A stretch of DNA of 64,000 nt, taken from NCBI RefSeq assembly GCF_026802175.1, contig NZ_CP113797.1, positions 3,883,026 to 3,947,025 on the forward strand, in the 5' to 3' direction. Positions 8,206 through 47,022 of this stretch are shown piece by piece. This stretch comes from Thermocoleostomius sinensis A174 (lineage in GTDB: Bacteria > Cyanobacteriota > Cyanobacteriia > Elainellales > Elainellaceae). Positions within the stretch are counted from its first letter, which is position 1, and every line of letters starts with the position of its first letter. Below the pieces are notes generated by a model, which worked only from the letters and a program-made list of their open reading frames with translations, had not been told where the DNA came from and did not search any database. The translations under genes were made by a program, and so were the position numbers.

Positions 8206-8470
8206 CGATTGTCGGCATCTAGGAGAAAGACCAATTTTGTACCTGCTTATGTACTATGCCAACTTATGACCAACTCTGAACCGATCTCATGAACCGATTC
8301 GATCGGGGCTGTTGGCAATTGCATTCATTCGTAGAATACAAGTAATTGGTAGATACAAAAACCGGGTTGTCTCTATCCTGCGTGCCCATTAGGTAGACTA
8401 GTAGAAACGCTTTAGAACGCCCAAAAATCTTGAGCTTCCCCTCGTACACCCCAAGAAGGAAAAGAGAGTC

Positions 8471-9235
8471 ATGGGACTATTTGACCGTGTGAGCCGAGTT
8501 GTTCGGTCTAACCTGAATGCTGCTGTCAGTTCTGCCGAAGATCCTGAAAAAATCTTGGATCAGGCCATCATTGACATGCAGGAAGATTTGGTACAGTTGC
8601 GTCAAGCCGTTGCTACTGCGATCGCTAGCCAAAAGCGGGTACAACAGCAGTACATGCAGGCTCAATCTGAAGCTGATAACTGGCAACGTCGTGCCCAACT
8701 AGCCCTGCAAAAAGGCGACGAGAACTTAGCTCGGGAAGCCCTAAACCGCAAGAAAGTCCAAGCGGAAACAGCAACTGCGCTTAAGACTCAGTTTGATCAA
8801 CAATCCGCTACTGTCGATACGTTGAAGCGGAATTTGATTGCCTTAGAAGGCAAAATTTCAGAGGCGAAAACCAAAAAAGACATGCTCAAGGCTAGAGCGC
8901 AAGCGGCCAAAGCCAACGAGCAACTGCAACGCACCGTGGGCAACTTGGGCACCAGTACTGCCATGTCCGCCTTTGAGCGTATGGAAGAAAAGGTGATGCA
9001 AATGGAAGCTCGATCGCAAGCTGCTGCTGAGTTAGCTGGGGCTGATTTGGAAAGTCAGTTTGCTCAATTGGAGGCAGGGGGCGATGTTGATGCCGAATTG
9101 GCTGCTATGAAGGCGCAACTGTTGGGTGGATCGGCTGCCGATCAAGCTCAACTCCCGTCTGAAACTGCTGCTCCTAAGGATGCTTCAGTCGATGCAGAAC
9201 TCGAAGCCCTCAAGCGACAACTCGATCAGCTATAG
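8471..9235 (+). CDS. vipp1: VIPP1/PspA/IM30 family membrane-remodelling protein
   Basis: An ESCRT-III-like protein needed for thylakoid biogenesis and membrane protection; it forms large rings and rods on membranes. The 254 residues begin 'MGLFDRVSRVVRSNLNAAVS', the amphipathic membrane-binding helix. Long charged coiled-coil helices follow to about residue 215. A linker then leads to a C-terminal helix 'DAELEALKRQLDQL'. That extra C-terminal helix distinguishes VIPP1 of cyanobacteria and chloroplasts from bacterial PspA. The start ATG has 'AAGGAAAAG' upstream. It appears to be monocistronic: a hairpin follows 60 bp after the stop. No pspBC or pspF genes are nearby, as usual in cyanobacteria. 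Confidence 0.95.
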   Translation: MGLFDRVSRVVRSNLNAAVSSAEDPEKILDQAIIDMQEDLVQLRQAVATAIASQKRVQQQYMQAQSEADNWQRRAQLALQKGDENLAREALNRKKVQAETATALKTQFDQQSATVDTLKRNLIALEGKISEAKTKKDMLKARAQAAKANEQLQRTVGNLGTSTAMSAFERMEEKVMQMEARSQAAAELAGADLESQFAQLEAGGDVDAELAAMKAQLLGGSAADQAQLPSETAAPKDASVDAELEALKRQLDQL

Positions 9236-9295
9236 GCGGCTAACGTAGATGGGTTGACCTCAAACTCCTCAATCAACGAACGGCGCTTAAAGCAG

Positions 9296-9315
9296 GGGTG
9301 AGCATTGACTCACCC
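9296..9315 (+). terminator. Hairpin after vipp1, shared with 63655-63677
   Basis: GGGTGAG (9296-9302) pairs perfectly with CTCACCC (9309-9315) across a six-base loop. There is no U-run, so termination is inferred from position only. A near-copy lies after the DUF3181 gene at 63655-63677, marking it as a dispersed hairpin repeat. Confidence 0.5.
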
Positions 9316-9327
9316 TATGGCACGGAC

Positions 9328-9371
9328 AACGTTAAGCAAACGTTAAGCAAACGTTAAGCAAACGTTAAGCA
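9328..9371. repeat. Four perfect tandem copies of an 11-bp unit
   Basis: AACGTTAAGCA is repeated four times without a gap or mismatch (9328-9338, 9339-9349, 9350-9360, 9361-9371). The period equals about one DNA helical turn, so each unit faces the same side of the helix. It lies 160 bp before the thioredoxin start and just after the vipp1 hairpin. It could be a binding array for a regulator or a replication-slippage product. Confidence 0.95.
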
Positions 9372-9531
9372 ATAGTAAAGTGGGGATCGATTATCCGCAA
9401 CAGCAACGATATTCTTGATGTTGTCGATCGATCGCATCAGTCACTAATCTAGAGAAGGACAGTCTGTATAGATTTACAGTCTTTGTTTACTTAAGATTCA
9501 GAGTAGCAAGTTACCCCTGTGTTATCTGTGT

Positions 9532-9873
9532 ATGATCAGCAGTACTCCTACAACCGTCACCGATCGAGATTTTGCAACAGAAGTCCTGAGTGCTAATCAG
9601 CCTGTGTTAGTCTACTTTTGGGCAAGTTGGTGTGGCCCTTGCCGCCTGATGTCGCCCATTCTCGATAAATTAGCGGCTGAGTATGGTGATCACTTAAAGA
9701 TTGTGAAGATGGAAGTCGATCCCAATCCTGAATCTGTGGCTGTCTATCAAGTGGAAGGCGTACCTGCATTTCGCCTGTTTAAGGCAGGGGAGGTTGTGGA
9801 ATCCTCGGAAGGAGCCATTAGTCAGCAAAAGTTGCAAAGTTTGATTGCTCCCCATCTTGCTGCCCCAAATTAA
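9532..9873 (+). CDS. trxA: Thioredoxin
   Basis: A 113-residue cytoplasmic disulfide reductase. The active site 'WCGPC' is at residues 33-37 within 'FWASWCGPCRLM', and the cis-proline segment 'VEGVPAFRLF' follows. Length and motif order are those of a canonical thioredoxin. Cyanobacteria have several types; the N-terminal 'MISSTPTTVTDRDFATEVL' suggests a minor, non-m-type member, so the symbol is generic. ATG 9532 is the only reasonable start. The 295-bp upstream gap carries the four-copy 11-bp array, making this a good candidate for unusual regulation. Confidence 0.92.
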   Translation: MISSTPTTVTDRDFATEVLSANQPVLVYFWASWCGPCRLMSPILDKLAAEYGDHLKIVKMEVDPNPESVAVYQVEGVPAFRLFKAGEVVESSEGAISQQKLQSLIAPHLAAPN

Positions 9874-9894
9874 CGAAAAAATGCTGTATGGAAT

Positions 9895-10074
9895 TTACTC
9901 CACCGCCTGCGGCTCCTCTTTCCCCAATTTAGGCAGCACAACACGACAGGCTAAAGCAGCCGTCTGGCCAGGCTTTTGGTATTCTTGCCACAGCGGTTGT
10001 TGCGCGATTGGAAGTTGTCGGAGCGCATCGAAAAACTCCAAAGCAATAACGTGACTATCGGTATCCAGGACCAT
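9895..10074 (-). CDS. Small hypothetical protein (59 aa)
   Basis: An ATG-initiated frame of 59 codons ends in TAA between two convergent-facing longer genes. The product starts 'MVLDTDSHVIALEFFDALRQ' and ends 'LPKLGKEEPQAVE'. Its composition is that of a normal soluble protein and not of noise. No good ribosome binding site is visible, and an in-frame TAG about 27 bases upstream rules out a longer form. It could be a real small gene or the remnant of a longer one. I do not recognise a family. Confidence 0.4.
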   Translation of the reverse strand: MVLDTDSHVIALEFFDALRQLPIAQQPLWQEYQKPGQTAALACRVVLPKLGKEEPQAVE

Positions 10075-44336: not shown

Positions 44337-46016
44337 ATGAAAATTTCCCACAAGTTGCTCGGCAGCTTCATTGGTGTTTCCCTACTAACCGGAGTAGTTG
44401 GCGCGGTAGCGGTTATTCAAAGTCAAAAAATTGCGGAAACCTTAGCGATCGCCGAAGCCAAACATGTGGCGGAAGTCATAGCAATTTCGATTACCCACCA
44501 TCTCTCGCCTCATCGGGGTGATGTTGCTCAACCCTCCCTGTTTGAATCCGACTCAGACGAACTACAACGCTACACCGATCTCTTGCATGACCTGCAACAG
44601 CGTGACATTGTGGTCGTCGATCGCCAAAAGCTGATCTTGGCAGACGCTATCCCTAGGAATGTGGGAACAGTTTTTAACCATGATCAGGGCAATGAAATTC
44701 AGCAGACAATGCAGGATGGCAATCCCAGAACTTTTCTGGAAAAAAGTGACGATTATCCTCAGGGTATAAAACTGATTGTCATTCCACTAAGAACCTTGCG
44801 AAATACGATCGAGGGTGCCGTCATTTTAGAGTGGTCATCTCTATATAACGAAGCGATCGCCCAAGCCAAACCTACCTTAGTTGTGATTGGGCTTACCAGT
44901 CTAGGAGGAATTACTTTCGCATTGTTCATTGGGTTGCAAATTGCAAACAGCATTGCCAAGCCCCTACAAGCCGCCACTACCATTGCTCAGCAAGTGACGC
45001 AAACCTCTAACTTTGCTTTGCAAGCTCCCGTCACAACAACCGATGAAATCGGCACCTTGGCAATGGCACTCAATAGCTTGATTCAACAGGTCAAAATGCT
45101 GCTGAATGAAAAAGAGCAGCACTCTAGAGAACTTCAGCAAACCTTAACCCAACTTCAAATGGCGCAACTCCAATTGGTTCAAACTGAAAAGATGTCAAGT
45201 TTGGGGCAGTTAGTTGCTGGCGTAGCTCATGAAATCAACAACCCGATTAACTTTATTCATGGTAACGTCACTCACATTGATCACTATACTCACGACCTGT
45301 TGAAAGTTGTGCAAGCCTATCAAACGTATTACCCTAATCCCCCTCAGACGCTCCAGGAACTATTAGATGATGTAGAACTTGACTTTTTATTTGAAGACTT
45401 AGAAAATCTCCTTCAGTTGATGAGGCTAGGTACAGATCGAATTCGTCAGATTGTTTTGTCTCTGCGTAACTTTTCTCGATTGGATGAATCTGAGTTTAAA
45501 TCTGTTGACTTACATGAGGGCATTGACAACACACTACTGATTTTGCAACATCGTCTGAAGGCAAAGCCAGAGTCTCTAGCAATTGAGGTCATTAAAGAGT
45601 ATGGTCAATTGCCCTTAGTAGAGTGTTACCCTGGACAGCTAAATCAGGTGTTTATGAACTTGATTGTTAATGCGATCGATGCCTTACAAGATTCTGTTCG
45701 GCATCAATCAAATACCAAACAGCTAGCGCAACCGGGCATGATTTGGATCTCGACTCAAGTAAAGGCTGAGGATCGAGTACAGATTACGATCTCAGACAAC
45801 GGTTTAGGAATACCAGAAACAGTCCGATCACACATTTTTACTCCTTTCTTCACAACTAAACCGAACGGTAAAGGCACGGGCTTAGGGTTGTCGATCAGTT
45901 ACCAAATTGTGACTGAAAAGCACAAAGGTACTATCTGGTGTGATTCTGCGCCAGGAGAAGGCACCAAATTCGTGATTGAAATCCCAATTCGCCAACCTAG
46001 ATCAACATCCACTTGA
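44337..46016 (+). CDS. Sensor histidine kinase with HAMP domain
   Basis: From ATG 44337, 559 residues. A membrane helix (about 7-28), an extracytoplasmic sensor of about 150 residues, a second helix (about 180-202), a HAMP linker with 'TTDEIGTLAMALNSLI' and a coiled coil lead to the kinase core. The H-box is 'QLVAGVAHEINNPINF', with phosphoacceptor near H298. The ATPase has 'NQVFMNLIVNAIDAL' (N-box), 'ISDNGLGIP' (G1), 'IFTPFFTTK' (F-box) and 'GTGLGLSI' (G2). It is a complete, active-looking kinase. No response regulator gene is adjacent, so the partner is unknown. An upstream in-frame TTG at 44283 is less likely. Confidence 0.9.
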   Translation: MKISHKLLGSFIGVSLLTGVVGAVAVIQSQKIAETLAIAEAKHVAEVIAISITHHLSPHRGDVAQPSLFESDSDELQRYTDLLHDLQQRDIVVVDRQKLILADAIPRNVGTVFNHDQGNEIQQTMQDGNPRTFLEKSDDYPQGIKLIVIPLRTLRNTIEGAVILEWSSLYNEAIAQAKPTLVVIGLTSLGGITFALFIGLQIANSIAKPLQAATTIAQQVTQTSNFALQAPVTTTDEIGTLAMALNSLIQQVKMLLNEKEQHSRELQQTLTQLQMAQLQLVQTEKMSSLGQLVAGVAHEINNPINFIHGNVTHIDHYTHDLLKVVQAYQTYYPNPPQTLQELLDDVELDFLFEDLENLLQLMRLGTDRIRQIVLSLRNFSRLDESEFKSVDLHEGIDNTLLILQHRLKAKPESLAIEVIKEYGQLPLVECYPGQLNQVFMNLIVNAIDALQDSVRHQSNTKQLAQPGMIWISTQVKAEDRVQITISDNGLGIPETVRSHIFTPFFTTKPNGKGTGLGLSISYQIVTEKHKGTIWCDSAPGEGTKFVIEIPIRQPRSTST

Positions 46017-46766
46017 GGAGGGTACACCAGTGGCTACAGCGATTGATGATTTTCATAGATAAACTGCTCGCTGATTCTGGTGTAATGTACCGTAACGATC
46101 GCGACGATTCAATTGACTAATCTGAACTAATCTGAGAAACGTGAAAAGAATATTAAGAAGAATTTAAGAAACCTTGAGAAAGCCTAAAGAGTATCTTACA
46201 CACTCACTAAAACCCATGAATAGGTTTTAGGCTTAAATTCAAGCTATTGCGGGACTTTGCTATGCCAAACAGCCGCTGCATTCCTGTGTTTCTCGATCGC
46301 TATAGTAAATAATCAAGCAGAGGCTCTAGAACATGTTGTGAGTTCGTTGATTATTCAGTCAATAGGCTGGATCTTCTTGAGCTAGCTAGCGTGATCTAGA
46401 TTGTTGGCAGAACTGTCAAACTTGAGTCACTAACCTTAGAACCCAATTGGAGCAAAATTCGCTACCCAATACGGGATCTGAAAAACTCTTACAGGTTGGC
46501 TTTTGCAGGTAATAGCTTGATTCAGTCGGTAAACCAACCAAAAATGTCAAAATCTGCTGACTTTTGCAACATTTATTAATATAATTGGGGTGGTGTTAGC
46601 GTGAAAATAGAAAATATTCAGTATACTTCACTACAAAGACAGGGTCTCGATTAATTTTTTGAGACATTTTAATTCTGTTACCGATCCGGCGAAGGACTGA
46701 ACTTTTCTAGGGCGACACACCTACTATTCTTCTCATCACTACAATGGCTAAAGCAGAGGGTGAATT
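46017..46766. other. Long gene-free stretch after the histidine kinase
   Basis: 750 bp without a credible ORF. It contains a perfect hairpin at 46207-46230 and an AT-rich stretch (46555-46660) likely to be the DUF4327 promoter area. No tRNA or known small RNA was recognised; its length leaves room for an unannotated small RNA. Confidence 0.5.
46207..46230 (+). terminator. Hairpin CTAAAACC...GGTTTTAG
   Basis: Eight perfect pairs with an eight-base loop, 190 bp after the kinase stop. There is no U-run, so its role in termination is a guess. Confidence 0.35.
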
Positions 46767-46988
46767 ATGATTCAATCCGTTCAGTATTCTATGGGTATCA
46801 TCCAAGATGAAGCCCGACAGCTAGTGCAGAAAGGAGTGGTTGGTCGTAATCAACCCATTTATGTTCTCTGCCAGTATATTCCGGCTCGAGAATGGGCGTG
46901 TGTAGAATGTGTATTAGAGAACAATGATTTCCTTCTGCGCGATCGCATTGGTGACTTACTTGGTCGCGAAGACTGGGAGAATGATTAA
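46767..46988 (+). CDS. DUF4327 family small protein
   Basis: 73 residues, soluble and acidic. 'IIQDEARQLVQKGVVGRNQP' followed by 'IYVLCQYIPAREWACVECVL' and 'ENNDFLLRDRIGDLLGREDW' is the DUF4327 pattern, a small family found in cyanobacteria. Function unknown. ATG 46767 is the only start. Two hairpins follow just downstream. Confidence 0.88.
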   Translation: MIQSVQYSMGIIQDEARQLVQKGVVGRNQPIYVLCQYIPAREWACVECVLENNDFLLRDRIGDLLGREDWEND

Positions 46989-47022
46989 GCCTCGCGCTCG
47001 TTGTATCTAAACATACTAAGCA

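Follow-up and report, generated by a model that had tools for sequence, protein, structure and literature searches.

The cyanobacterial Pho box is the closest described counterpart of the tandem array analysed here. These SphR/PhoB sites, known from Synechocystis sphX, pstS2 and phoA, are described as at least three tandem 8-bp repeats separated by 3-bp linkers, with the consensus CTTAACCT (PMC1906773), or, in an alternative definition, as two to four YTTAAYYW units (PMC13226834). In Synechocystis, PhoB is reported to have bound less well or not at all once any one of three TTAA cores was mutated (PMC11126600). PurtA, a negatively regulated Pho promoter of Synechocystis, is described as carrying such boxes at a gene outside phosphate uptake, and in this respect it is like the array (PMC13226834). 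In Escherichia coli, many PhoB sites located outside promoters are reported to be transcriptionally inert (PMC10294691).

A different class of sequence provides a second point of reference. The short tandemly repeated repetitive (STRR) heptamers of cyanobacteria consist of a short unit repeated perfectly in tandem.

The array described here has features of both. With the Pho box as described at sphX, pstS2 and phoA (PMC1906773, PMC13226834, PMC11126600), it shares 8-bp units with a TTAA core, 3-bp linkers and the presence of at least three tandem units, and its unit, CTTAACGT, is the same as that in the pstS box of its own genome. It differs from the Pho box in the perfect identity of its copies, linkers included, in facing away from the downstream gene, in the G at unit position 7, in a target that is not a phosphate gene and in its lack of conservation. 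Like the STRR heptamers, it is a perfect tandem array of a short unit, and heptamers of such kind are found in the same genome, but the period is 11 rather than 7.

A perfect 11-bp array between vipp1 and thioredoxin

A tandem-repeat scan of the window (the whole 64-kb stretch of DNA that was analysed) identified 4.1 copies of AACGTTAAGCA, with 100% identity, at positions 9328–9372; with a score of 90, it outranks every other tandem repeat in the window, the runner-up scoring 60. Read on the minus strand, the array is CTTAACGT-TTG repeated four times, with the 8-bp units at 9329–9336, 9340–9347, 9351–9358 and 9362–9369, and a degenerate fifth unit, CTTTACTA (9373–9380, minus strand), precedes the four perfect ones in register on that strand. 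The array starts 92 bp 3' of the stop, at 9235, of a vipp1/PspA-family gene (8471–9235, plus strand; TIGR02977, 159.9 bits, under the cut-off of 242.95), for which we retain the name vipp1 that the initial annotation had assigned by resemblance. It ends about 160 bp 5' of the ATG, at 9532, of a thioredoxin gene, trx, that encodes 113 amino acids (9532–9873, plus strand; TIGR01068, 99.6 bits with a cut-off of 96.8; PF00085). The initial annotation had pointed to a perfect array with a period of one helical turn between these two genes, had deemed a regulatory placement plausible and had named slippage and selection as the two readings; all of this holds. Its further statement, that no operator of this form has been described in cyanobacteria, is wrong, because the minus strand displays the published layout of the SphR/PhoB Pho box, with units of 8 + 3 bp at an 11-bp period, four of them perfect and carrying a TTAA core and one degenerate.

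The resemblance was scored over three units, using a Pho-box matrix built from 24 of the 30 sites (rows) in Table 1 of Su et al. The array scores 24.6 on the minus strand, which is the best value in the window, and 15.2 on the plus strand; among 798,840 sampled genome positions, the maximum is 17.2 and none attains 17.3. When random 11-mers of the window were turned into arrays, an equally good fit to the Pho unit was obtained in 178 cases out of 20,000 (~0.9%). Unit position 7 is usually C or T; the G that the array has there is infrequent among published boxes (5 of 72 units) and is seen in 5 of the 33 units of family pstS sites scoring at least 17, and it is also present in the pstS and phoX boxes of the same genome. 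The second-best independent site of the window, CTTAAATTCTTCTTAATATTCTTTTCACGT at 46139–46168 on the minus strand, has a matrix score of 20.2 without an evident target, which warns of false positives of the matrix: it is directed towards the 3' end of a gene resembling those of sensor kinases, and no ORF of at least 80 amino acids is listed from 46016 to 47000. None of the literature matches listed dealt with a Pho box that is reversed or repeated perfectly.

Pho sites elsewhere in the genome and the candidate regulator

The pattern CTTAACNTNNNCTTAACNT was drawn up from the array together with the Pho consensus, at a stage when none of the Pho genes of this genome had yet been looked at. Across the 5.8-Mb genome, the array alone matches it without mismatches, and three further loci match with 1 mismatch, one of which is the promoter of pstS (TIGR00975, 339.6 bits), where the box lies in sense, ~90 bp 5' of the start, and holds an exact CTTAACGT; the remaining two loci have no evident phosphate gene downstream. 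The narrower pattern CTTAACGTNNNYTTAAM (CTTAACGT-N3-YTTAAM), which was written after pstS had been seen, is found at 0 mismatches in the 5.8-Mb genome only at the array and the pstS promoter. The initial annotation had recommended a genome-wide search for pairs spaced 11 bp apart, and this search recovered the exact unit pair elsewhere only at pstS, a recurrence that names a candidate binder.

The best matrix sites within a 28-kb Pho cluster score 21.3 and 19.5 at two divergent pstS-family genes (TIGR02136, over cut-off), 17.5 at pstS and 17.3 at phoX (PF05787, 340.6 bits), each in sense to its own gene, and the array, at 24.6, exceeds the whole range of 17.3–21.3 spanned by these pstS and phoX sites. 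At two further PstS-family genes, one in an arsenic-type cluster and the other a PstS relative at 5215903, the matrix finds no comparable site (6.6 and 4.3). Degenerate Pho patterns in the genome were not enriched over reversed controls (43 versus 94 and 11 versus 22), and the same was true of degenerate three-box patterns (14 versus 19, and 9 versus 12 in relatives); because of this last result, single pattern matches are not counted as evidence. Four tandem Pho-like units are present elsewhere in the genome (G000:C1:219861-219901; loci L143/L144), in sense before a glycosyltransferase-like gene.

Genes resembling those for SphR and SphS are present in the genome. Altogether, 23 matches cover the PhoB model almost from end to end, and the cut-off of 296.2 is reached by none of them. 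The regulator at G000:C1:1804696-1805400 is the second-best match (232.2–232.8 bits; the best, at 2836009, scores 233.9), and it was chosen because the adjacent PAS/HisKA kinase on its 3' side matches the PnpS and PhoR models, albeit below cut-off. We take this regulator–kinase pair as the candidate SphR–SphS, other binders being possible.

Orientation, transcription signals and conservation

At the 3' end of vipp1 there is a hairpin (9295–9316, plus strand; stem 9295–9302/9309–9316; fold z −2.96) that lacks a T run and is likely to be a terminator of that kind; hairpins were seen by eye at a comparable place in several relatives, and a terminator scan of 9200–9560 that required a T run found none. 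Alignment of near relatives and a motif survey together suggest a trx promoter, TTGTCG-N18-TAATCT (9421–9450, plus strand), with TTGTCG at 9421–9426 and TAATCT at 9445–9450. By eye, TTG..-N19-TAA(G/T)CT is also recognizable in loci L032, L040, L042 and L049, and among 80 loci, the best of 324, TAA[GT]CT occurs no farther than 170 nt ahead of trx in 22, compared with 318 of 4,000 random windows, some of these 22 matches falling within the end of vipp1 and the other 58 loci being devoid of the motif. A strict sigma-70 scan of 9200–9560 detected no promoter, the putative trx promoter included. On the minus strand, a weak TAGGGT (TAN3T; 9312–9317), located 11 bp downstream of the last unit of the array on that strand, is a possible −10 element of a leftward transcript antisense to vipp1.

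With respect to these signals, the array precedes the putative −35 element by ~40 bp and lies at about −77 to −129 from the inferred trx start, whereas the boxes of PurtA are described as close to the −10 element (PMC13226834); at this distance, steric repression of the trx promoter is unlikely. Furthermore, the array points at vipp1 and away from trx, unlike the four sites of the Pho cluster and ten pstS sites of relatives scoring at least 17, all of which are in sense toward their own gene.

Conservation was assessed in 35 other genomes of the family, none of them of the same genus, and in the best 80 of 324 thioredoxin loci, 59 of which have vipp1 within 900 bp upstream. The array is present in 0 of these 59 vipp1–trx spacers and in 0 of 13 spacers of family genomes (29 loci, 13 with both genes in order), two sets that overlap, as several of the genomes are the same; on account of this absence, a conserved trx operator was rejected. 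The best matrix score in a spacer of a relative is 17.4, at two Myxacorys loci (L048 and L052), likewise on the minus strand; this site, which sits in a block conserved between the two species that is perhaps their trx promoter, was rejected as support. Upstream of pstS in the family (this genome included), a site of at least 17 is found in 11 of 29 cases, always in sense, and the other 18 fall below 17. In the fetched loci, the exact unit pair was found only in copies of the array locus itself (10 of 245). Exact CTTAACGT-N3-CTTAACGT occurs in 2 of 388 genomes of the class, counting this one, and the one further site, to be set against 7 reversed-control sites, is in genome G123 (L155 1501-1519), where it precedes, in sense, a gene interpreted as an SLH-domain porin; a class-wide CTTAACGT operator was rejected on these numbers. 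Other Pho-like sites were noted as well: triple sites with 0–1 mismatch lie 300–530 bp before a purC-like gene in L228, L230 and L231, which represent three genera, with a small conserved gene diverging from the site in L230 and L231, and L233 has a triple site (1501–1530) in sense before a Na/Pi cotransporter-like gene.

The proposal of the initial annotation that the array is a trx operator is not supported, given its reversed direction, its distance from the putative promoter and its absence from the relatives' spacers examined. Because both orientation and conservation fail, we do not class it as a working Pho promoter for trx. In these respects it is similar to the inert PhoB sites of E. 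coli, which are described as good sites off the proper promoter geometry, tolerated and poorly conserved, although those sites are mostly intragenic, whereas the array is intergenic and perfect (PMC10294691).

Origin of the array and its possible output

Base rates of tandem repetition were obtained from 20 stretches of 20 kb across the same genome (400 kb, or 464 kb with the window). Perfect tandem duplications with periods of 6–30 number 45 per 464 kb compared with 0.8 in a Markov null, the commonest periods being 7 (14 cases), 12 (7) and 14 (6), with 4 cases of period 11. Slippage or duplication thus operates in this genome, but a four-copy 11-mer is unusual. The 4 period-11 duplications of at least two copies, two of which are inside the window, compare with 0.0 in five runs of the Markov null, and the array is the sole four-copy case at this period in 464 kb. 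No perfect period-11 array of at least three copies was found in the 400-kb sample, in which the five perfect arrays of at least three copies with periods of 7–25 are four heptamers and one 16-mer; heptamer arrays in this genome reach 4.86 copies. The four perfect copies of the array are not due to chance. Another perfect 11-bp tandem repeat, TTAGAGACTTG × 2.4, is located in the window at 2210–2235, and in two family members (L118 and L122) the vipp1–trx spacer contains 11-bp tandem repeats unrelated to the array (ACAGGTCTCAT-like, three copies; TTTAGTTGATT, two copies).

On the strength of the sequence, the evidence favours an array derived from a Pho box over a neutral look-alike. The former reading, by which a Pho-box unit was multiplied in tandem through recent slippage or unequal duplication, is the best explanation we can offer, with the chances for and against it about evenly balanced. 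The main rival, somewhat less probable but to be taken seriously, is neutral slippage, that is, an 11-bp tandem duplication to which no protein binds and which looks like a Pho box by chance. The array is indeed a perfect short tandem repeat in a genome rich in such arrays, as would be the case for a neutral STRR-like element, and the excess of perfect duplications, the heptamer arrays, the unrelated 11-bp repeats in the L118 and L122 spacers, the absence of the array from the relatives examined and an orientation that is wrong for trx are all compatible with neutrality. So are the TTG linkers, which are repeated as perfectly as the units although they are not needed for Pho binding; under either reading, these linkers argue for recent growth by slippage. 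Neutrality accounts less readily for a fit to the Pho unit that random arrays achieve only ~0.9% of the time, for an exact unit pair that recurs only at pstS and for a four-copy period of 11 that is unique in 464 kb.

Two further explanations carry little weight. The array could be the operator of another response regulator of the OmpR/PhoB family that binds tandem direct repeats, and the genome has 23 near-full-length PhoB-model matches. Other OmpR-family regulators also bind direct repeats. Still, the sequence agrees specifically with the Pho matrix and with the pstS box, and the HLR1 layout of RpaB, with its 10-bp period and TTACA core, does not fit the array, so that we consider such an operator improbable. 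An element acting at the RNA level, in the 3' UTR of vipp1 or the 5' UTR of trx, is conceivable inasmuch as the array lies between co-directional genes and could be transcribed, but it is by far the least probable of the explanations considered: the array lies between the vipp1 hairpin and the putative trx promoter, its RNA folds no better than shuffled sequences (z −0.99), and a search of 8300–9900 for Rfam families up to E = 1 gave no match save one below the gathering score inside vipp1. An RNA structure or riboswitch at the array was accordingly rejected.

For the Pho-box-derived array, the sequence of events would have been as follows. An SphR (PhoB-type) half-site, CTTAACGT, would have been multiplied to give four perfect 11-bp repeats and a diverged fifth, and upon phosphate starvation phosphorylated SphR would bind head to tail, one monomer per 11 bp, along one face of the helix. 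We infer the binding, the phosphate control and the slippage origin alike. The array is probably capable of binding phosphorylated SphR, and, as the TTAA core is intact in all four perfect units, the binding would probably be tight. Since the array faces vipp1 and sits ~77–129 bp upstream of the inferred trx start, the output is uncertain and possibly nil: the bound array could be inert, could modulate trx weakly from upstream or could start leftward transcription that runs antisense through the last part of vipp1. A more ambitious version, in which the slippage-grown array places a locus unrelated to phosphate, namely vipp1 and thioredoxin with their roles in the upkeep of the thylakoid membrane and of redox balance, under phosphate-starvation control, by way of either a vipp1-antisense RNA or a reversed upstream site of trx and with copy number as a dial, appears unlikely to us.

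Should no protein bind the array, it is a reminder that operator look-alikes can arise by slippage. If it is bound, simple tandem slippage would have amplified a regulator's half-site into a strong site in a new location, which would be a direct route for a regulon to gain members. PhoB control of a redox gene, sodB, has already been described in Synechocystis (PMC11126600), and binding at this locus would connect a membrane gene and a redox gene, vipp1 and thioredoxin, with phosphate starvation.
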